From Siphonodentalium dalli (lineage: Eukaryota > Mollusca > Scaphopoda > Gadilida > Siphonodentaliidae): DNA of 64,000 nucleotides. Location: assembly GCA_032622095.1 (NCBI GenBank), contig CP136062.1:3782001-3846000 (forward strand), given 5' to 3'. The first letter of the stretch is position 1. Every line of letters starts with the position of its first letter. Below, one piece after another: positions 5,690 to 35,312 of this stretch. The notes beneath the pieces were generated by a model that made no database searches, was not told the DNA's origin, and saw only the letters and a list, made by a program, of their open reading frames with translations. Made by a program: the position numbers and the translations under genes.

Positions 5690-6482
5690 TTACCCATGGG
5701 TATGACACAAGGTCAATTCACATGCCCCGTGGTGATAAACTAGGTCTTCACGGACCACAAAAATGTAGGGAAATTATACGATATTCGATATTTACCTTAG
5801 GGTATGAGACAAGAATATTTCACAGGCCCCGTGGGGGCCATATCGGGAAACAGTTGGACGGTTCTGAAATCCTGGCCCATTTATACCGAAAAAGGACCGC
5901 ACGCCGCTAGGCTTTTGATAAACTAGGTCATCACGGAACCCATATTATAGGGAAATTCGAAAATTATTCAATATTTACCATAGGGTATGAGACAAGGCCA
6001 ATTCTGAGGCCCCGGGGTGGACATACCGGGGCACACTTGGGATTTTCTAAAAAAAACTGGCATATGTATACTAGCTAGGCTTTTGATAAACTAGGACACC
6101 ACGGACCCCATAACTAGGGAAATTAAATGTTTATTCGATATTTACCCTATGGTATGAAACATGGTCTATTCACAGGTCCCGTGGGGGAAACAACGGGGCA
6201 CATTGGGGTTTTTCTGATATATTTCGACACATAAACCGGAAAAGGACCATACCATAAATTAGGTCATCACGGAACACCAAAATTTGGAAATTACATGATA
6301 CTCTATATTTACTGTCGGGTATGAGTCAAGGTATTTTCCATACCCCATGGTGGACATATCGGGGCACCTTGGGACTACGTATATCGGAACCGCACCACAC
6401 ATAGCTAGGCTTTCGATGAATTAGGTTATCATGGAATACCAAAATATGGAAATTGTATGATATCAGATATTTACCCTAGAGT
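5690..6482. repeat. Tandem array, ~170 bp units, about five copies
   Basis: The word ATAAACTAGGTCATCACGGA (or a close variant) recurs at about 5737, 5920, 6085, 6257 and 6416, so units are 160-183 bp. Each unit also carries GATATTTACC, GGTATGAGACAAGG and a GCCCCGTGG-type word. The array is diverged. The L1/Tx1-like LINE inserted at its right edge. Confidence 0.8.
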
Positions 6483-6498
6483 ATAAGAGTAATATGAC
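6483..6498. repeat. Target-site duplication, left copy (16 bp)
   Basis: ATAAGAGTAATATGAC is repeated exactly at 9792-9807, after the A-rich tail of the LINE. It defines the 5' boundary of the insertion. The A-rich edge makes the first base or two ambiguous. Confidence 0.85.
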
Positions 6499-9373
6499 GG
6501 GCGCTTCCTTACCTTTTTGCTCTCATTTATCTAAACTAAGAAAATGTAAAGAGACTAAATTAATTGAACAAATAACAAATCTAGAGAAAATTACAACGGA
6601 AAAAGAAAGTTTAGAAATGGAGAAGCTTAAACGTGAATTAGAAACATTACGAGAAGAAAAACTAAATGGAATATTTGTTAGATCACGTGCTAGATGGATT
6701 GGTGACGGGGAGAAGCCAAGTAAATATTTCTTAAATTTAGAAAAACGAGATTTTACGTCTAAAACCATCCAAAAATTACAGGCAGATAACGGAGACATGA
6801 TATATGAACAACATGAAATCCTTCAAGAGACAAACCATTTCTATAAACGTCTTTATAAAAACCAAGATGCAGAAACACATTCCTTAAACATTGATAACTT
6901 AATAACTAACGTGTGTGATATAAATGACAAAGTTGAAATAAATAAATTAACGCTAGAGACTGGTCGATGTTTGGAAGGAGAAATTAGTTACAGCGAAGCG
7001 CTAAATTACTTGAAAAAAATGAAAAATAATAAATGCACTGGAAACGATGGATATTCTGTAGAGTTTTTTAAATTCTTCTGGCGAGATGTTGGAACCTACC
7101 TGGTCAGATCACTTAACTACGGCATGAAAGTTGGAAAACTATCTGTTACACAGAGGCAGGGAATAGTAACACTCCTCCCCAAAGACAACAAACCACGACA
7201 ATTTCTTAAAAACTGGAGACCAATATCCTTATTAAATGTGACATATAAAATTCTTACAGGAGTCCTATCTGAAAGATTAAAACAAGTTTTACCATTTCTA
7301 ATACATTCAGATCAAACCGGATTTATATCTGGACGGTATATTGGGGAGAATATTCGACTAGTGATGGACATGATGCTACATACAAAGCAAAATAAAATAC
7401 CGGGACTCTTGCTATTGATAGATTTTGAAAAAGCATTTGATTCGATATCCTGGAAATTTATATACAGTGTACTAAAATACTTTAATTTTAGTCAACCATT
7501 TATCGATTATATAAAGACTTTATATTGTGATACTTCATCATGTATAAATTTAAATGGGCAAATATCAGACTTTTTCAACTTAGAGAGAGGATGTAGACAA
7601 GGCGATCCAATATCCCCATATATTTTTTTATTATGTGCAGAAATTCTTGGTATTATGGTACGATTCTCAAAAAACATAAATGGTATCAATGTTGGTAATA
7701 AGAATATAAGAATGTCGCAATATGCCGATGATACATCTCTTTTCCTCGATGGGTCACCAGATTCTCTAGAAGCAGCTATGAAAGTACTTGATAACTATAA
7801 ATATGTATCGGGTCTAAAAATTAACTATGACAAAACACACGCAGTGTGGATTGGTACAAAGGCAGACAGCACGGAACAGATATGTGACCGATGGAAATTA
7901 AACTGGAATCCAGAAACCTTTAAAATACTTGGTATAGAATTTCATCATGACACTAAACGTATGATTGACATAAATTTTACAAACGGGCTTATGCAATTAA
8001 AGAACATACTGGCAATGTGGAGTAAACGTAACCTAACTGTTCTCGGTAAAATAACTGTTGTCAAATCGCTAGCTATTTCAAAATTAGTACACCTGTTCCT
8101 TGCACTACCGAACCCCACAGATGAATATATAAAAAATTTAAATAAACTGCTCTTTGGTTTCATTTGGAACCAAGGTCCAGATAGAATAAGTAGAAAACTG
8201 CTCACTCAGAACTATGCTTCTGGTGGGTGTAAAATGATTGATATTAAGACTTTCATAAATTCTATGAAGATATCATGGGTTAAGCGAGTTATCACACAAC
8301 GGGCTTCCTGGGTTACAGTTTTCGAACACTCTTGTAGTATATTTTGTAATAGTTGGTATCTAATGTCATCTACAATTTTAAAAAACCAATCTAAAACACT
8401 TGATAACAATTTCTGGAAAGATGTAGTAAATGCCTGGATTCTGTACTGTGACAAACTAGCACCGGTGATTCAATGTGATCTCCTCACTACACCTTTAGTA
8501 GGATTCGAGGATACGGTAAAACTGGTGAAGCCACGATTGAAACTGTTCATGACTGATAAGCTTATATACATATTCGATTTTCAAGACAATTTAGGAAAGT
8601 ACCTGTCACAGGAAGAATTTAACGCTCTACACAAAACAAACATCGACTTTCTAACTTTTAACGGAATTGTAAAATCAATCAAGAAAAGAGATAAATTTTT
8701 AAGTAAAAGCGACAGGGTTTTGCGCCCTCATATACCATTTCAATTAATAAATTTACTTGCTCCGAACAGTGCTAAATCCACGTATAAAACAATGTTACCA
8801 ATTGAATCACCCCATAAACAAATAAGTAAATGGGAACGAAAGTTGAACCGAACATATAATGTCGAGTTCTGGACTGAAGTATATAGATGCCCATTTATTT
8901 ACGTCACCGATACCAAACTTAAGTGGTTCCAATACCGAATAAATACACATATCATCGGTACAAAACAACTTTTGAAAAAAATGAAAATATCTGACGACGA
9001 CTCATGCACCTTCTGTAAATCTAATACTGAATCGATCATTCACATTTTCTGGGAATGTCCAAACATACAATATTTTTGGAATACGGTCGAAAATTGGGTA
9101 TTTTATAATACGAGTACTAGATTACAACTCACACGTGAAACTGCAATATTTAGCAGCCGCCCTGGAAAATATACCAGTCCTTGGATAATATTCCTTCTTA
9201 TCTTTGTTAGATATCACATTTATAGATCAAAGATGAATAACTCTATGCCAAACCTCACCGGACTTAAAAAAGAACTTAGTTTATATTTCCATTCTGAGCG
9301 TGTTTTTTATTATAATAAAGGTCAATACACTAAATTTAAACAAAGATGGTCTTATCTAGAAGAACTATTTTAA
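6494..9373 (+). CDS. LINE reverse transcriptase, L1/Tx1-like, N-terminally truncated
   Basis: This frame encodes 959 residues of a non-LTR retrotransposon ORF2 protein, whose known role is copying element RNA into DNA at a nicked target. Residues 62-85 carry a RARWIGDGEKPSKYF-type block that precedes the RT in the L1/Tx1 group. RT motifs follow in order: DFEKAFD (310-316), RQGDP (368-372) and YADD (410-413), so all catalytic Asp residues are present. A C-terminal CCHC-like finger is at C838, C841, H850 and C855. Full-length ORF2 proteins also carry an N-terminal endonuclease, which is missing. The first ATG lies inside the target duplication, so the first codons are host DNA and this is not a natural start. 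No internal stop or frameshift is present. The protein is unlikely to support its own mobility. Confidence 0.93.
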   Translation: MTGASLPFCSHLSKLRKCKETKLIEQITNLEKITTEKESLEMEKLKRELETLREEKLNGIFVRSRARWIGDGEKPSKYFLNLEKRDFTSKTIQKLQADNGDMIYEQHEILQETNHFYKRLYKNQDAETHSLNIDNLITNVCDINDKVEINKLTLETGRCLEGEISYSEALNYLKKMKNNKCTGNDGYSVEFFKFFWRDVGTYLVRSLNYGMKVGKLSVTQRQGIVTLLPKDNKPRQFLKNWRPISLLNVTYKILTGVLSERLKQVLPFLIHSDQTGFISGRYIGENIRLVMDMMLHTKQNKIPGLLLLIDFEKAFDSISWKFIYSVLKYFNFSQPFIDYIKTLYCDTSSCINLNGQISDFFNLERGCRQGDPISPYIFLLCAEILGIMVRFSKNINGINVGNKNIRMSQYADDTSLFLDGSPDSLEAAMKVLDNYKYVSGLKINYDKTHAVWIGTKADSTEQICDRWKLNWNPETFKILGIEFHHDTKRMIDINFTNGLMQLKNILAMWSKRNLTVLGKITVVKSLAISKLVHLFLALPNPTDEYIKNLNKLLFGFIWNQGPDRISRKLLTQNYASGGCKMIDIKTFINSMKISWVKRVITQRASWVTVFEHSCSIFCNSWYLMSSTILKNQSKTLDNNFWKDVVNAWILYCDKLAPVIQCDLLTTPLVGFEDTVKLVKPRLKLFMTDKLIYIFDFQDNLGKYLSQEEFNALHKTNIDFLTFNGIVKSIKKRDKFLSKSDRVLRPHIPFQLINLLAPNSAKSTYKTMLPIESPHKQISKWERKLNRTYNVEFWTEVYRCPFIYVTDTKLKWFQYRINTHIIGTKQLLKKMKISDDDSCTFCKSNTESIIHIFWECPNIQYFWNTVENWVFYNTSTRLQLTRETAIFSSRPGKYTSPWIIFLLIFVRYHIYRSKMNNSMPNLTGLKKELSLYFHSERVFYYNKGQYTKFKQRWSYLEELF

Positions 9374-15699: not shown

Positions 15700-16743
15700 T
15701 TTAGACACCAACTAGAGAGATATGAGTGTATTACTCTGATAGAAACGTGGCATCAAGATTCATCAGAAATTGATTTAGAAGGCTACGAAAATCTAAATTT
15801 AAGTCGTGGCAAGGGCAAGAAAAAAGGAGGTATCGCCTTTTATTTCCTCTCAAAATTCAAAAAGTACATGCGAAAAGTCTACACTGTAAACGAAGTAGCA
15901 CTAATTGTTGAGTTCGATGGTAAATTACTTAACCAATCCACAAAGGTAATATTTGTATCATTGTACATGAAAGATAAAGATGATGATATTTTTGAGTGTG
16001 TCGAGTAGGCATTAGCTCGGTACAAGAACAATGAACTTTTGATTATCGGCGGGGATTTTAATGCACGCACAGGTGAATTGCCAGACCACGTGGTATCTGA
16101 CAGTGATCAGCACACGCCGCTCCCAGATGATTATATAATAGACACGTGCCCTAATAGAGTCAGTATGGATAGTCGTGTAAACTCTTTTGGACGTCAGCTC
16201 ATTACTCTTTGCCAAAGTAGTGGTATTCGTATAATTAATGGACGATCTACAGGCGATCGACTTGGTCATCTCACAAGCTATCAATATAATGGGGTGAGCG
16301 TCGTTGATTATATCCTTATAACAGAGAGTTTTCTTTGTGCCGTTGATTACTTTTGCGTTAAACTTCCAACGGAATTCTCTGACCATTGTCGATTAGTTCT
16401 TCACTTAAAATATGATAATGAACGATGCCAATCATCAAACAAATACTCATATACCCGAATAAGAACACATCTTAATAGTGATGAGAAATTGCGTGACGTC
16501 ATGCATAATACGTCCATGCGAGGACGCTTATCTAACTATAAAACGTATCCCTATCAGCACGATGTTTGCGGTGCCACAAATGCGACCAAAGACCTTATGC
16601 AAATAATAAAAGACGTGAACATGTACGCATGTTCACGTCTGGTAGTCAAGAGGAAGAGAACACCACGTAAAAGAAAGTGGTTCGATGGGCATTGTAGGGA
16701 ACTTAAGCGTGATCATTATCGATATGAGGAAGAACCCACTTGA
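15700..16743 (+). pseudogene. LINE X endonuclease segment (in-frame stop)
   Basis: The frame shows the LIETW block (the Glu motif of APE endonucleases) near 15735-15750, then IIGGDFNARTG starting at about 16039, and FSDHCRLVLH near 16377. These correspond to the metal-binding Glu, the GGDFN block and the terminal SDH block. The enzyme nicks target DNA to prime reverse transcription. A TAG at 16006-16008 interrupts the frame between the first two motifs. The frame is lost near 16715-16740 and the sense continues in another frame. A perfect 30-bp hairpin lies at 16611-16640. Confidence 0.85.
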
Positions 16744-18301
16744 AACAAACCTAAGAACACGATATCATGTGAAACGGAAAGCATACAAAAAGTCGCTTAA
16801 GACTAAACGACGGGCATTTTACGCAGATATATATTGTAAACTAGATACGTTAGAGACAACCAACCCAAAACAATATTGGGAAATCATAACAAAAACGCGA
16901 CAGAAACAGGTTTCCCAAAATGAACTTGATGCTGATAGATCAGTTGATTTCTTCACTAAGCTTTATTGTCCGGAACCTGATAACCCAGATTGTGGATTAC
17001 CTTCGGTCATATATAAATCTTCCAATCAATCTATTAATAATGATGTCATCACGACAGAGGAAGTACTTGGTGCTACACGAGAATTAAAAAACGGAAAGGC
17101 AATTGGACCCGACCAAGTTTCTAACGAATTGCTTAAGTCGCTCGTTCCTTTGATGATTGATGAAATTGTAAAATTGTTTAACTTAATTCTAGAGACAGGA
17201 CAGTATCCGAGTGAGTGGAGTGAATCTACCCTCACTTTAATTCATAAAAAAGGAGACAAAAGTGATCCCAATAACTACCGGGCAATAGCAGTATCATCGT
17301 CGGTCGGTAAATTGTTTAATAAAATAATTAATCGTCGATTAATCGCGTTCTTGGATGTAAACAATATTATTAGCGAAAACCAATTTGGTTTTTCGAAAGG
17401 GAAGAGCACCATTGATGGAGCGTTTGTTCTACACGCGGCCATACAAACATACAACGGAATGGGCAAGCCGCTATATGCTGCGTTCATAGATTTCAGAAAG
17501 GCGTTCGACACAGTTAACAGGCAAATACTTAAAAAAAAATTGAAATGCGTGGGGATTAAGGGACACATAATGCGGGTAATTCAGTCACTATATGACAATA
17601 GCTATTATATCACCAAATCAAACAAAGGGTTGGGGCCTTCGTGCTTGTCCACGATAGGTGTCAGACAAGGGTACATATTGTCACCAAATTTGTTCAAAAT
17701 CTTTATTGATGACATTAAAAATGTGTTTGACAGCCCTTGCGATGCTGTCCGTATAGGCAATGATTCACTTAATCAAATTTTATTCGCTGACGACCTAGTT
17801 TTACTTTCGGATACTCCAAATGGGCTTCAGCGGTGTCTAAACAGACTAAATAGATACACGGAGACCAACAAACTCGCCGTGAACACTGATAAAACTAAAT
17901 GTATGGTGTTTAGACCTAGGAAAGCTAAAACTTCACCAGACTTTCACATTGGAAATCAAAAGTTGGAAAATGTCACTGAATACAACTATCTTCGAATTAA
18001 ATTTAGTAATACTGGTAGATTCATACATGCAATGGAAGAGTTAAGTGCTAAAGGTCTCAAAGCAATGCATTCACTAATTAATGCATGTACAAAAGACGCA
18101 CCGATTCCAATATCGACGTCTTTAAAACTCTTCGATAGATTAATTAAGCCGATACTATTATATGGAAGCGAATTATGGGGCGTTGAAATAACCACTAAAA
18201 ATCACGACCGCCTGCAATGTGAAAAGGTACACTTAAATACTGTAAAAGGTTACTCGGAGTCGGTAAATTTTCTTCAAACAACGCTGTCCGCGCCGAGTTA
18301 G
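16685..18301 (+). pseudogene. LINE X reverse transcriptase segment
   Basis: Genuine homology starts about 10 codons after the first ATG, where the frame takes over from the endonuclease segment. Residue landmarks: GKAIGPDQVSNELL (138-150), HKKGD.....NYRAIAVSS (187-205), QFGFSKGKST (233-241), DFRKAFDT (269-276), RQGYILSPNLF (327-337) and FADD (367-370). The catalytic Asp residues are intact. RQGY has Tyr where Cys or Asp is common. The frame is abandoned around 18240, so this part cannot make a full ORF2 protein. Confidence 0.88.
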
Positions 18302-19011
18302 GGAGCCACCCACTATTCATTGATGTGGCATGCAGACTTTCAACATATGTAATTAAGTTAATGTCACGGTCGGACTGTAAACTTCTCCGCAGTGCTGCGT
18401 TGGAACAACAGATGGCATCGGTTAAGAAATCAATCTTTAAAACGGCAGAATCACTGGGGTGGAATATTGCAGACCTCCAAAACGCTGGTCCCGTACTGTG
18501 TCAATTCAAAAGAAATCTTATTGAAGATTATTATATATATTTTAGACAGAGTCTCACTGACGAATGTTCAAAAAAGGGAAGTAATAAGTTACGAACATAC
18601 CGACTTTTCAAACTTAAGTACGAAATAGAACCTTATCTTCTTCACACAACATCAATAGAAAATATAATTGTTTTCACTAGACTGCGAATAAGTAATCATA
18701 AATTGGCTATCGAAAAGGGACGCCACACACAACCGCCGACGGCAGTGGAACAAAGGTTTTGTATATTTTGTTCCGATAATGCTATTGAAGACGAAAAACA
18801 TTTTCTTTTAGAATGCAGCGCTTACCGCACACAACGTCTCGAGCTCACAAACCTTATGAAGACACAGTTCTCAGACTTTGAAAGCATGACCCAAACTGAA
18901 CAGCTTGTCAAAATCTTATCGAACAATGTGTCAAATACATGCACTTCAATTTGTCATATCATCCGAAGATTATTCTCCGCACGTGATGAGCATCGTATCA
19001 TAAATCAATGA
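18240..19011 (+). pseudogene. LINE X ORF2 C-terminal segment with CCHC-like finger
   Basis: This is the third frame. It continues the polypeptide from CKRLLGVGKFSSN through LGSHPLFIDV to RLRISNHKLAIEKGRH, then CIFC and HFLLEC, a Cys-Cys-His-Cys arrangement common at the C terminus of APE-type LINE proteins. The ATG at 18325 is internal to the protein and is not a start. The stop at 19009-19011 appears to be the natural end. A homologous, more decayed copy of this part lies at 21172-21560. Confidence 0.85.
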
Positions 19012-30198: not shown

Positions 30199-31210
30199 CA
30201 TATTTCAGGTACATTAAGGGCTTTGTGGACCCAATTTTTTCAAAATTTCCCAAAATTTTATAGAGTCCAAATAAAGGATTATGTTCATGTATATTAGTAA
30301 TAATAGAAAGTATACTTCATGGTGGATTATGTTAGAAATACAAAATGTGAACTTTATTGAGATTTAAGAAAAAATTAATTTACAGGCAATGGTCCAAGAA
30401 AAACAAAGTCCAAATCTAAGAATCAAATATGGGAATATTTACTGAACACTGTGATGAATGATGTATTACAAAAAAAATATTATATTTCTTTAGTGTAACT
30501 GTGTTCTTTGATAAAATAACTTTGAACCGGTTGTTGACAAATGATATATACTTGCTTAAACGTTGGCTATGTGGGTGGTAGCAGGCACGGGTTAACAGCT
30601 GGCCATTGTAACTGCTCTGGACTCTGTTGACAATAGAATGCTAGTCCTCAATCATACCCCTACCAGATCACCATACTAATTCTAGTAAGTAGGTCACCAT
30701 TCACTCAGTGTGATCACTCATGTGGAAGTTTGACACTGGTAAAAAGCCATTCACACCAGACTGGACATCAGCCATGAAAGGTTGACCCATTAACTGCTGC
30801 CTCTCAGTCAACCATATTATGAAGTTAGTATATCATTTGTCAACAACCGGTTCAAAGTAATTTTTATCAAAGAACACTCAAGAAATATAATATTTTTTTT
30901 GTAATACATCATTCATCACAGTGTTCAGTACATATTCCCATTTTTGATTCTTAGATTTGGACTTTGTTTTTCTTGGACCATTGCCTGTAAATTAATTTTT
31001 TTTAAATCTCAATAAAGTTCACATTTTGTATTTCTAACATAATCCACCATGAAGTACCGGTATACTCTCAAAATGTTGCATCAATGGGCATGGTTTCTAT
31101 TATTACTAATATACATGAACAGAATCCTTTATTTGGACTCTATAACATTTTGGGAAATTTTGGAAAAATTGGGTCCACAAAGCCCTTAAATATGTCCTGG
31201 ATATGCGTGA
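30199..31210. mobile_element. Foldback element Q, ~360-bp arms, ~270-bp centre
   Basis: The left arm (about 30199-30556) runs from TTAAGGGCTTTGTGGACCC to GAACCGGTTGTTGACAAATG. The right arm (about 30830-31210) is its reverse complement with small indels, including ATACCGGTATACTCTC-type extra bases. The unrelated centre has no open frame of interest. Long inverted arms with a short unique middle match foldback-type elements, or two head-to-head copies of one repeat. Confidence 0.8.
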
Positions 31211-31412: not shown

Positions 31413-32021
31413 TCACTGAGATGAGGTGTGTGATGTTTTTCCAGGAGGCTGCGATTGGTGGAACTCTCCTGGAGTAGCGATCCTACTTTTTCGGAGTGCC
31501 CCTACGAATTCCTCCGAATCGCTAGCGCACACAACAGAATCCTCAAGTTGGTTCCAGTCAATTGTCGTTTTTACGAAGAAGGAGTGTTTGTAATGGTCGC
31601 AGCTAGTACGCCTGAGTTGGAACGGCCATTTATTATTACAAACCTCCTTTTCGACTATGTTGGTGGAGATGTAGTCCGAGAAATTTGTTGCAGTTATCTT
31701 TCTGCTTTCCTTTTTTGGGGTTTGGAAGTCATGCACATCAAGAGCTGGCACCATCCCCCTCACTATCTTGTGGAACTGTGTCAGTTTTATTTCCTGGCGT
31801 CTTTCTTGGAGTGATGTTAGTTCCAGTTCATCAAGCATGTTGGTTACAGATACCCCCATTCGCCTATAGTTGTTCTTGATAAATCTGGCGCCACGTCTTT
31901 GCACTTTCTCAATTGATGTTATATCCTCCTTTTCGTGTGGATCCCAAACTGCTGCTCCATATTCAAGCGTCTGTCTGACTAGGGCTATGTATGCTGTTTT
32001 TTTTACATTTCTCCGGTGCAT
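31413..32021 (-). pseudogene. CR1-like LINE ORF2, C-terminal segment
   Basis: This continues the RT polypeptide after a frameshift. It starts near VKKTAYIALVRQTLEYGAAV, then RRGARFIKN and a region rich in charged residues. These blocks are characteristic of the region after the RT palm in CR1-like elements. The ATG at 32021 is internal to the protein. The change of frame coincides with eight consecutive T (A on the coding strand) at 31997-32004, a likely slippage site. Confidence 0.88.
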
Positions 32022-33561
32022 GTCTGATGTTCCTGCGGAGAGTGCAGTTTGCTCTTTTGGTTATTTTCCTCACATGTGATGACCATGATAAATCGTCGGT
32101 GATGGTTAATCCGAGATATTGTGTGTCGTGGACCGTTTGGAGGATGTCATTGTTTAGTTGGTACATGTGCGATGAGCGGTTCCGAATGCTCATGATGAAA
32201 CATTTTTGTGTGTTAAATCGCATTCCCCATGTATTTGCCCAATCTTCAAGAGCTTTCAGGTCATTCTGGAGGATCTTGTGGTCCTCTTGTTTGTTGATGT
32301 TTCTATATATGAGACAGTAATCTGCGAAGAGTCTTATTTGGGAATTTACGCAGTTTGATATGTCGTTTGCATGTACGAGGAACAGGAGGGGTCCCAGTAC
32401 GTTACCTTGTGGAACTCCAGAGTCCACTGGTAGGTATAAAGAGCATGTTCCCTCAACTGCTACCCACATACGCCTGTTTGTCAGGAAAGATATCAGCCAA
32501 TCTAGTATGTTGTTTCGGATCCCGTAAATTTCAAGCTTCTGCAGTAATTTGTTGTGGGGCACAGTATCGAATGCTTTGGAGAAGTCCAATATGGCTACAT
32601 CGGTTTGGATTGTCTTGTCATATGATGATAGTAGGTCCTCAGTTGTTGTTAGGAGTTGTGTGACACACGAGTAGCCTCTTCTAAAGCCATGATTTAATTT
32701 TGTTAATATGTCGTGTTTGTCCAGATGGTCTAGGATGTGGCGGCATATTATGTGCTCCATTATTTTGCAGGATACTGATGTTAGCGATACGGGACGATAA
32801 TTTTCGGATTTGTGGACATCACCTTTTTTGAAAATTGGTGCGATGTTTGCATCTTTCCAATCCTGTGGTAGTTCTCCTGACTTCAAAGACTTCGAGAATA
32901 TGTATGTCAGTCCGGGTGCTATGGCTGTTGCACACATTTTCAGGACCTTGTTGGGGATGTCGTCCGGTCCGGAAGCCTTTCCTGGGTTTACATCTTTCAG
33001 CAATTTTTCTACGCCTTGGGTGGATATATTGAGGTCTTCTATTGATGGTTTGCTGGGTGGTAGTTTTATGTTGGCTTGGCTTGAGCCTTTTGTGAACACT
33101 GACCGGAACTGGTTATTAAGAATTTCGGCCTTTCGTTCTGGGTCATTTGTTAGGCTACCATGTTCTTTCAGTGGAGCTATTCCGATGTTATCTCTTCTTC
33201 TCGCTTTTAGGTAGTTCCAGAATGGTTTTGTGTTGTTTTCTGCCAAGCCCTCTTCTACTACTTTGTTCACGTGCTCCCATTCAGCCCGCCTTAATTCTCG
33301 ACGACACGTTTTTTGGAATTTGCGGTATTTGTTCCACTTTTGTTGTTCTTTTGCTTGTTTGTGGAGTTTAGCCTTTTTTTTTAGCATTTTGATCATTTTC
33401 CAATCCAGCCAGGGTAGTTGGTTTCTTCTTCTTCTGCCAGATGTTGGGATGTGTTTGTCCATGTGTTTTTTTATTCCATCTCTGAACGACTCCCAGATGG
33501 TGTTTATACTGGCGTTTACTGGTAGTGTTCTCAGCTCTTCTGATAATATCCTAATATCCAA
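31963..33561 (-). pseudogene. CR1-like LINE reverse transcriptase segment
   Basis: Landmarks by residue: a basic linker (40-100), GKASGPDDIPNKVLK (194-208), FKKGD....ENYRPVSLTSV (244-263), DFSKAFDTVPH (326-336), VPQGNVLGPLLF (383-394) and LFADYCLIYR (411-420). The RT copies element RNA at the nicked target. The second Asp of the FADD catalytic pair is Tyr here (codon at 32317-32319), a change expected to abolish polymerisation. VPQG is followed by Asn where Thr or Ser is usual. The frame joins the endonuclease segment near 33585 after a frameshift, so the ATG at 33559-33561 is internal. Confidence 0.92.
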
Positions 33562-34568
33562 GGAGAAGCTGGTCCAATCTGCCTTCTTAATGCATAACGT
33601 TTCCTTGTTTGGCTCTTTTCTTGCCGATATGGTGTAATTTGGCAGTCGGTGACTATCATGTCGTGATCAGAGAAACCTGGTATGCTCTGTGCGGTCTTTA
33701 TCAGTGAGGCATTGTTTGTAAGTACCAGGTCAATGAGGTTGTTTTCTCGGGTTGTATTTCTGTGGATTTGAGTCAGTCCTTTCCGGATGCAGATATCTAG
33801 TAGCGCTCGTTGGATATCAGCGTCTGCTGCTCCGGGTGTTACGGAGAGTTTCTCCCAGTCAATGTGCGGGCAGTTGAAGTCTCCGCCAAGTATGACATTT
33901 TTGTATCCCTTCTCCTGCAATAGATCCAGGGACGTCTCCAGTTTGTTCAGGTCATCCATATTCCGGTGTGCCATGTAGAAAACCCCAACATAGAAGGATT
34001 TGCTGTTGGATGTAGTTATTAGCGCCCATTCCAGCTCACAGTCAGTTATGAGGTCAAGTTGTTCGACCGCTGTCAGCTCTTCGTGTGTGGCGATAAAGAC
34101 ACCACCTCCTCTGGAACCTCTGTCATTTCGCAGTACTTTATAGTCAGTGGGAAAGTCTTCTGCGGAATTGATGGCATCTGGTTCTGGTGGCTTTCCTGGA
34201 CGGATGCCTTTAAGCCAGGATTCTGTTCCCAGGATAATGTCAGGTTTTGTATAGAAAGCAGCTGTTGCTAACTCGGCTTTATTTTTCTGTGCACTTCTGC
34301 AGTTTACTGTAAGTAGTCGTAGATTGTCTTTCTCGTTTAGGTGGTATATGCTACTTTTTGATATGCTGGTGGAATATCGTTGTGATTGTGATATATTTGC
34401 AGGCTCGGTTTTATTTATCGTGGAGACTGGGCTGCTTGTGTGCAATGGATCAAAGATGGTGGAGGTCGTGCTGTTAATTGTCGACTCAAAGCCGCTTCCT
34501 GGTTGATGTTGTATTGAGGAGCTGAATTCATAACTGTGGAATGTGAAGCTGTCCGCATTTATACTGTC

Positions 34569-34721
34569 GCATATATTGCAGAACCACTTTACATCACTGT
34601 TTTCCAGTTGTTCAAATTCGCCTGTGCAGAAATCCAAGCATGATCGGTGATACCAGACGTCGCACTCGTCACAGCAAACTCCCTTTGTTTCCCAGGTGAC
34701 TCCAATCTCGCAGAACCCACA
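34569..34721 (-). other. PHD-type zinc finger coding segment
   Basis: This encodes a C4HC3 pattern (C-x2-C, C-x2-C, H-x2-C, C-x2-C) with the Trp two residues before the His. PHD fingers bind histone tails in chromatin proteins. In CR1-like LINEs their role is unproven. Confidence 0.88.
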
Positions 34722-34748
34722 CGGGTATACGGATATTTCCGTCTTCCT

Positions 34749-34808
34749 TGGGCCTGGGTTTTGTTCGATCCCTGCGATGAGTAACAGAAGGAGTATGAGT
34801 AACGCCGA
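34749..34808 (-). other. 2A-like ribosome-skipping motif
   Basis: A Leu/Ile-rich run leads into GIEQNPGP, ten residues before the PHD finger. The 2A consensus is D-x-E-x-N-P-G then P, where the ribosome omits the Gly-Pro bond and releases the upstream peptide. 2A-like motifs have been reported in other APE-type LINEs. Here Asp is replaced by Gly, so activity is uncertain. Confidence 0.75.
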
Positions 34809-35312
34809 TCTTTTCTGTTGGTTTGTTGGATCTTTGGCTGAGGTGTTTGGTTTCTGTTGGTATTTCAGCCTGAATGTTGCAACGCATACATATTTTACAA
34901 TGATGTCCATGTGAGGTGTCCCTAGTAGAGCTTTTTGGATTGTTAGGAATATCAAGCAGATGAGTATGGTAGGCAGCAAACTCATATGTGTAGGTGGTCT
35001 TTTCCTCTTTCTTTGTGCATGTCGGGTATAGCATGGTTTCGTGTCAGCACAGCGCGGTCTAGCCCACACACTCTGACACCCTGGCATAGCGCGGTCTAGC
35101 CCACACAGCTCAGGTGCAAAACTCATGCTATACTCTCCAGCAATCGTTTGCCACACGATTTCTGATCTTCGCAGCCAGACTTTGCTTAGTGTGGTATCGG
35201 GGTGTATTCCGTCTTCCGTGAGACTGAAAGAATGCTTTGTTACTGTACGGTGGGTTTGACCTTGGTGGTTTTTAACTCTCTGCTTAGATGTTCTAGCTAG
35301 GTCGCAGGAGAA

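Follow-up and report, generated by a model that had tools for sequence, protein, structure and literature searches.

A 2A-like motif with glycine at its first core position, ahead of the PHD finger of a CR1-like LINE

Why would the nuclear enzyme of a retrotransposon sit behind a hydrophobic leader, only to be released from it by the ribosome? This question is raised by a degraded LINE on the minus strand of the window, the whole stretch of 64,000 nucleotides that was analysed. The element extends from about 35880 to 31413 or beyond. One of its frames (35312..33531, minus strand, 593 aa) runs from the end of an ORF1-like piece through a hydrophobic leader and the octapeptide GIEQNPGP into a PHD finger and an APE-type endonuclease. 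Judged from the sequence, GIEQNPGP is likely to be a StopGo (2A) site of a CR1/L2-like family of APE-type LINEs, one that would free a PHD-endonuclease-reverse transcriptase (RT) protein from its leader.

The motif and the element that carries it

The residues coded at 34808..34749 on the minus strand are SALLILLLLLIAGIEQNPGP, with NPGP at 34760..34749. This confirmed the original prediction that a 2A-like motif stands ahead of the PHD finger of a LINE: GIEQNPGP follows a Leu/Ile run, chance would give only about 0.0002 cores of this kind in the window, and the octapeptide fits the StopGo core consensus within an open coding frame, that of 593 aa. The predicted distance of ten residues from motif to PHD finger was right to within one residue, the first PHD cysteine lying nine residues after NPGP. 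Read against the published description, the upstream context LLLLLIAG fits the Leu-rich class that ends in (A/G/S)G at p12. The features of the element are as follows.

34749..34772, minus strand: StopGo/2A core octapeptide GIEQNPGP (p12-p19), matching (D/G/C/N)(V/I)ExNPGP of PMC12846837
34754-34752 / 34751-34749, minus strand: predicted skip between Gly and Pro, inside the GIEQNPGP core
34773..34808, minus strand: Leu/Ile-rich run SALLILLLLLIA, directly 5' of the core, with a 15-residue Kyte-Doolittle peak of 2.6
34749..34985, minus strand: predicted leader of 79 aa, from Met at 34985 through NPGP, with an N-terminal hydrophobic segment, SLLPTILICLIFLTI, and the 2A run
34569..34721, minus strand: PHD finger (PF00628), first Cys codon from 34721, last Cys ending at 34569
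33654..34313, minus strand: APE-type endonuclease domain, frame residues 334-553 (PF14529 and PF03372)
31963..33666, minus strand: reverse-transcriptase frame (RVT_1), set off from the endonuclease by a frame break; FADY at 32328-32317
31413..32060, minus strand: C-terminal ORF2 piece, in another frame after a second frame break, 35% to the C-terminal part of L017
35166..35879, minus strand: ORF1 remnant, possibly SGNH-esterase-like, sharing its frame with the leader (L094 alignment and motifs)

The core (D/G/C/N)(V/I)ExNPGP is expected 0.00017 times in the six frames of the window, given its base composition, and 4e-6 times in the 593-aa ORF, given its own amino-acid make-up. Bare NPGP was found three times in the window and is expected 0.3 times; in a shuffle control, its DNA pattern occurred 0.5 times on average and reached three in 3 of 100 shuffles. 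The other two occurrences (51269 and 5868, both plus strand) lie in short frames and have neither core nor Leu run. The motif in the window copy is very probably real.

The PHD finger (PF00628, residues 198-248 of the 593-aa frame) scored 23.1 bits, just under the curated cut-off of 24, and its Cys/His/Trp columns are common to four relatives in the alignment. After it, the same frame matches Exo_endo_phos_2 (2e-11) and Exo_endo_phos (4.6e-10) in Pfam, and the frame next to that of the endonuclease matches RVT_1 (1.1e-31). A PHD finger beside the endonuclease occurs in many CR1/L2 subgroups, not in all. By its APE endonuclease, RVT_1 and adjoining PHD finger, the element appears to be a CR1-like LINE (CR1/L2, Jockey superfamily), a label that comes from its domains; the RT tree described below holds fetched and window rows only. 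The window copy is dead, since it has an in-frame TAA, two frame breaks and FADY as its RT catalytic box, where the frame of the related L017 has FADD. As the copy is defective, its exact sequence serves no purpose today.

Upstream, in the same frame as the 2A, the ORF1-like piece extends from 35879 through a TAA at 35315-35313, with GTCDLT (from 35660) before the stop and DGIHP (35213-35199) after it. A search with this piece gave a match in one of the seven assemblies described below (L094, 8.6e-9). The L094 frame, in G001, aligns on both sides of the TAA (29%, E 7e-11; 33%, E 0.001, against a single sequence), contains DSK, GTCDLT and DGIHP, and reads through the position of the stop, which makes a nonsense change a more likely source of the TAA than a natural end of ORF1. 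Gag-like sequence from another retroelement comes after L094, whose membership of a LINE is putative. The motifs named here, which we take to be of the SGNH hydrolase type, are the basis of the esterase label, by which the remnant is possibly SGNH-esterase-like; Pfam gave no match for the ORF1 piece or L094, and a PDB sequence search gave weak unrelated matches or none. From the end of ORF1 (WLRR) to the leader Met, 60 codons are open in the same frame in the window copy. A direct repeat, GCGCGGTCTAGCCCACAC, lies between the ORF1 piece and the leader, at 35052-35069 and 35089-35106.

The window holds other elements too. Just past its 3' end is an inverted repeat (30214-30548 and 30829-31189) with arms of 335 and 361 bp that are 280 bp apart and identical at 319 of 370 aligned positions, the longest gap being 28; it looks like a foldback DNA element. 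A blastn match at first suggested another copy of the LINE 3' end; it proved to be this repeat. On the plus strand, a 970-aa frame at 6461-9373 with RVT_1 and zf-RVT belongs to another LINE, L1/Tx1-like by our reading of its domain order. A third LINE (16009-19011, plus strand) has broken overlapping frames with an RT and a weakly matched endonuclease, and its RT is closest to that of L074 (40%) among the tree rows.

NPGP among related elements

Relatives were obtained by scanning GTDB genomes with a CR1/L2-type RT motif pattern, which gave eight stretches in seven assemblies. Three of these assemblies bear titles that name symbionts of mussels or a snail, and the LINE contigs are apparently animal DNA, as judged for the other four from the LINEs themselves. 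Bacterial assemblies, several of them from animal symbionts (G001-G006; L012, L014-L019), contain LINEs, presumably as host contamination, and are a source of invertebrate elements. The 2A-PHD-endonuclease protein of the window matched in three of the seven assemblies and its RT in six, at 42 places. All contigs with an RT place were fetched, long ones in part, and their loci received L-numbers. The relatives counted here all come from the RT-similarity list, with NPGP not a criterion; frames were counted if open and at least 600 aa long, and those with more than 20 unknown residues were set aside.

NPGP was present in 8 of the 27 frames that qualified, once in each and N-terminal, and the remaining 19 were without it. 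It stands just before a PHD-type finger in L029, L031, L032 and L034, and directly before the endonuclease in the PHD-less L033, L064, L071 and L072. Of the fetched frames, four have a PHD-type finger, and each of these carries NPGP (Pfam PHD was above the cut-off in three, and the finger of L034 was recognised by pattern only). Since it occurs with and without the finger, NPGP is not a PHD feature. L029 has two tandem PHD fingers after its 2A (ORF residues 112-162 and from 233), apparently a duplication.

A midpoint-rooted RT tree, built from 17 selected rows, groups the window with L029, L030 and L090 (100/99) inside a 13-row clade (99/100). Ten of the 12 fetched rows of this clade have the N-terminal region, L030 and L090 being without it, and L029 is the nearest relative that has it. 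NPGP is retained, between two coding modules, in eight of these ten, or in seven of nine without L034, whose very long branch leaves its position in the clade doubtful. Family members lacking NPGP had been named in advance as evidence against a functional motif: two relatives in the clade, L046 and L085, lack it, L085 having a hydrophobic N-terminus but no NPGP, and the other eight have kept it. Pairwise identity among the relatives that share NPGP is 20-48%, and one pair reaches 69%. In L030 and the L035 minus-strand remnant, the sequence ahead of the endonuclease showed neither NPGP nor PHD when its three frames were read by eye; the missing stretch is probably due to 5' truncation.

Two shorter frames, both under 600 aa, also carry the motif. 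One, in L035, is a second element with Gly, reading LLIAGIE-x-NPGP, i.e. LLIAGIESNPGP, and this copy is broken as well. The other is the L089 ORF1 on the contig of L014, with LLLLSGDVETNPGP. This ORF1 (minus strand, 373-1458 of the reverse complement) has the motif about 105 residues in and belongs to a two-ORF LINE; a hydrophobic N-terminal segment precedes the 2A, a leader-2A design but in ORF1.

IMG/VR scans with the 2A-PHD-endonuclease protein, the RT, the RT motifs and a 2A-PHD profile gave no relative with the architecture of the window element, and among 11 loci from one of these scans the single RT match was short (L005) and NPG(P/M/W) was absent. With the 2A-PHD profile (cut-offs 1e-3, 1e-6, then 1e-8), further genomes gave matches in 1 of 83 (G003), 1 of 42 (G005) and 1 of 369 (G003), all in assemblies already known; the sets of 3, 395 and 397 genomes, which were without a positive control, gave none.

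Eleven sequences were aligned on NPGP: the window, the eight ORF2 frames, L035 and the L089 ORF1. Mean pairwise identity was 0.09 at positions -30 to -13 and 0.36 in the Leu run (-12 to -5); it was 0.37 for p12-p15 and 0.08 in the 12 positions that follow NPGP. The value of 1.00 for NPGP itself is circular, because NPGP served to select and align the rows, and those for the Leu run and p12-p15 are unaffected. At p12, seven sequences have D, two N and two G; at p14, eight have E, two H (L032, L033) and one S (L031); L029 has D at p12 and T at p13. The core variants in L029, L031, L032 and L033 therefore suggest that selection is looser on the full core than on NPGP. Conservation of the motif against a drifting neighbourhood, which had been proposed as a sign of function, held for NPGP in most relatives that could be checked, all from other animals, and more loosely for the full core, which varies at p12, p13 and p14.

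Synonymous codons vary at p11-p19 among the aligned sequences. In the pair L071/L072, dN/dS was about 0.25 for the leader before its last 20 residues (pN 0.286, pS 0.637), and the 20-residue 2A had pN 0.206 and pS 0.864; three further pairs gave leader values of 0.35 to 0.54. All these dN/dS values are rough because synonymous sites are near saturation. This showed that the L071/L072 leader is under protein-level constraint, with weaker values in the three other pairs.

Glycine at p12, the leader and the predicted skip

The p12 Gly codon of the window copy is GGG (34772..34770), two substitutions from either Asp codon, GAT or GAC, so one substitution in an Asp codon does not account for the Gly; a small deletion that kept the frame is a possible explanation. 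In L029, a member of the RT clade that holds the window, p12 is Asp and, by eye, the Leu run stands three residues further from the core. The core has been broadened to (D/G/C/N)(V/I)ExNPGP in a 2026 survey covering the proteomes of RNA viruses (PMC12846837). This survey finds G at p12 in 1,207 of 1,557 one-off octapeptides and describes G as being as prevalent there as D in RNA-virus StopGo sites. In its Leu-rich upstream motifs 2 and 6, (A/S/C)G precedes p12, whereas Leu-rich motif 5 ends in (A/G/S)G at p12; in the part of the survey available, motif 5 is outside the four motifs assayed. The original prediction had read Gly in place of Asp as a sign that this copy may be inactive. That reading found no support: Gly is frequent at p12 and typical of one Leu-rich class, L035 has it too, though in a broken copy, and GGG is two changes away from Asp.

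The leader was foreseen as short and hydrophobic. It is indeed hydrophobic, with two peaks (15-residue Kyte-Doolittle means 2.57 and 2.60), and was revised to about 79 aa with two segments and an ORF1 remnant upstream in the same frame. Its start at 34985 is the presumed one, as two further Met codons lie upstream in frame; from this Met, 75 residues before NPGP, the 2A is not at the extreme N-terminus. A hydrophobic leader is common among the 2A relatives, and its form varies. With a peak threshold of 1.9 (L064 left out; L071 and L072 being L015 and L018 in this comparison), L029, L031 and L032 have an N-terminal peak and 2A runs below 1.9; in L033, L071 and L072 the 2A run itself forms a peak, to which L072 adds a second, internal one; and L034 and L035 have no peak above the threshold. 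The full two-segment leader was seen in the window copy only, among the leaders compared. Because it is hydrophobic, with two segments in the window copy, the leader is probably membrane-associated, and the Leu/Ile run may serve both as the exit-tunnel context of a 2A and as a membrane segment. The leaders of the PHD-less L033, L064, L071 and L072 begin MGN(S/D), which we take to resemble an N-myristoylation start.

We propose that a ribosome on the main ORF would make a leader ending in the Leu-rich run and GIEQNPG, leave the Gly-Pro bond at NPGP unformed and release the leader. Translation would then resume at Pro, giving a PHD-endonuclease-reverse transcriptase that starts PRKTEISVYPC. As the leader is probably membrane-associated, skipping would detach a nuclear enzyme from its membrane or secretory leader; where skipping is incomplete, part of the enzyme would stay tethered. 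A leader with two destinations, as first suggested, is possible. The window copy would be a dead fossil of a 2A-bearing element, and its skipping activity is a prediction from the residues it encodes. In some contexts, 2A can be inhibited by upstream sequences that are translocated (PMC2978324), and some 2A motifs are inactive (PMC11512398). A membrane step in LINE life cycles is plausible given that a LINE esterase binds lipids (PMC3905857).

Three other accounts were weighed alongside the StopGo reading. The hydrophobic run could be an ordinary signal or anchor and NPGP a C-terminal turn or signal-peptidase region, with one chain and no skipping. The two hydrophobic segments of the window leader would suit this, as would the sea urchin NLR sequences that double as signal and skip site (PMC4981915). 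However, neither a turn nor a cleavage site needs a fixed NPGP, which recurs after runs of differing hydrophobicity (means 0.68 to 2.81), and a PHD-endonuclease-RT needing chromatin would be stranded; we regard this account as improbable. That NPGP arose by chance within a Leu-rich stretch is far less probable still. The two more bare NPGPs in the window show that the tetrapeptide can turn up, as it does by chance in other fetched DNA (L013; L034 plus strand), and two IMG/VR contigs have exact AG(V/I)ExNPGP matches, which lack a Leu run and were set down to chance. Against this stand the expectation of 0.00017 cores per window and the presence of NPGP in eight of ten relatives, which are diverged and not near copies of one another.

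Compatible with the StopGo reading, the 2A of the family may be active, now or once, and the window version with its Gly and shorter spacing a decayed one. The stop, the two frame breaks and FADY show that decay has reached this copy, and L029 has both the Asp and the three more residues. Yet Gly at p12 matches the frequent Leu-rich class (PMC12846837), LLIAGIESNPGP recurs in L035, though that copy is likewise broken, and a single point change is insufficient to reach GGG from Asp, where an in-frame deletion could. We consider decay of the motif itself rather unlikely. A further, tentative idea, drawn from the 60 open codons between WLRR and the leader Met and from the MGN starts of the PHD-less leaders, is that the 2A replaces a second start site. 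One frame would then encode a membrane module (esterase-like ORF1 and leader, the released leader being functional at membranes) and next a soluble PHD-endonuclease-RT, with the level of skipping setting the share of enzyme at nucleus and membrane.

Comparison with known systems

Active 2A sequences reportedly occur in four clades, Rex1, L2, CR1 and Ingi, and are correlated with elements that have one ORF. Recoding by 2A sequences in APE-type non-LTR retrotransposons is the subject of Odon 2013 (Mol Biol Evol); as in those elements, the 2A of the window LINE lies inside an ORF of an APE-type LINE, whereas Gly at p12, an in-frame ORF1 remnant upstream and a PHD finger right after the motif may set it apart. 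The N-terminal PHD finger has precedents in CR1 subgroup 6 and L2 subgroup 4, apparently single-ORF LINEs in which, as here, it stands at the N-terminus of the endonuclease-RT ORF (PMC4120745; Metcalfe and Casane 2014). The term '2A-like' is absent from that paper. Both 2A in APE-type LINEs and an N-terminal PHD finger on CR1/L2 elements are already known; among the papers listed, no title or abstract joined the two. PMC4120745 places CR1/L2 esterase ORF1s in vertebrate groups only, whereas two of the three nearest RT relatives of the window (L029, L030) come from a mussel-symbiont assembly; LINE esterases also occur in cnidarians and sponges (PMC3905857).

Two 2A types outside LINEs resemble the window sequence. 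StopGo motif 5 (PMC12846837) is likewise Leu-rich, with (A/G/S)G and Gly at p12 followed by (V/I)ExNPGP; unlike the window, which has Q at p15, it prefers P there and comes from RNA viruses. The sea urchin NLR 2A, described as a signal sequence with dual targeting (PMC4981915; Roulston et al. 2016), is hydrophobic and, as may be the case here, serves as signal and skip site. There it takes up 26 residues at the N-terminus of an immune receptor, whereas the 2A of the window ends a leader of about 79 residues. Taken together, the window LINE would add a Gly-type 2A to those of LINEs, and its relatives in mussel-associated and other assemblies keep the motif before the PHD finger or endonuclease while its surroundings drift.
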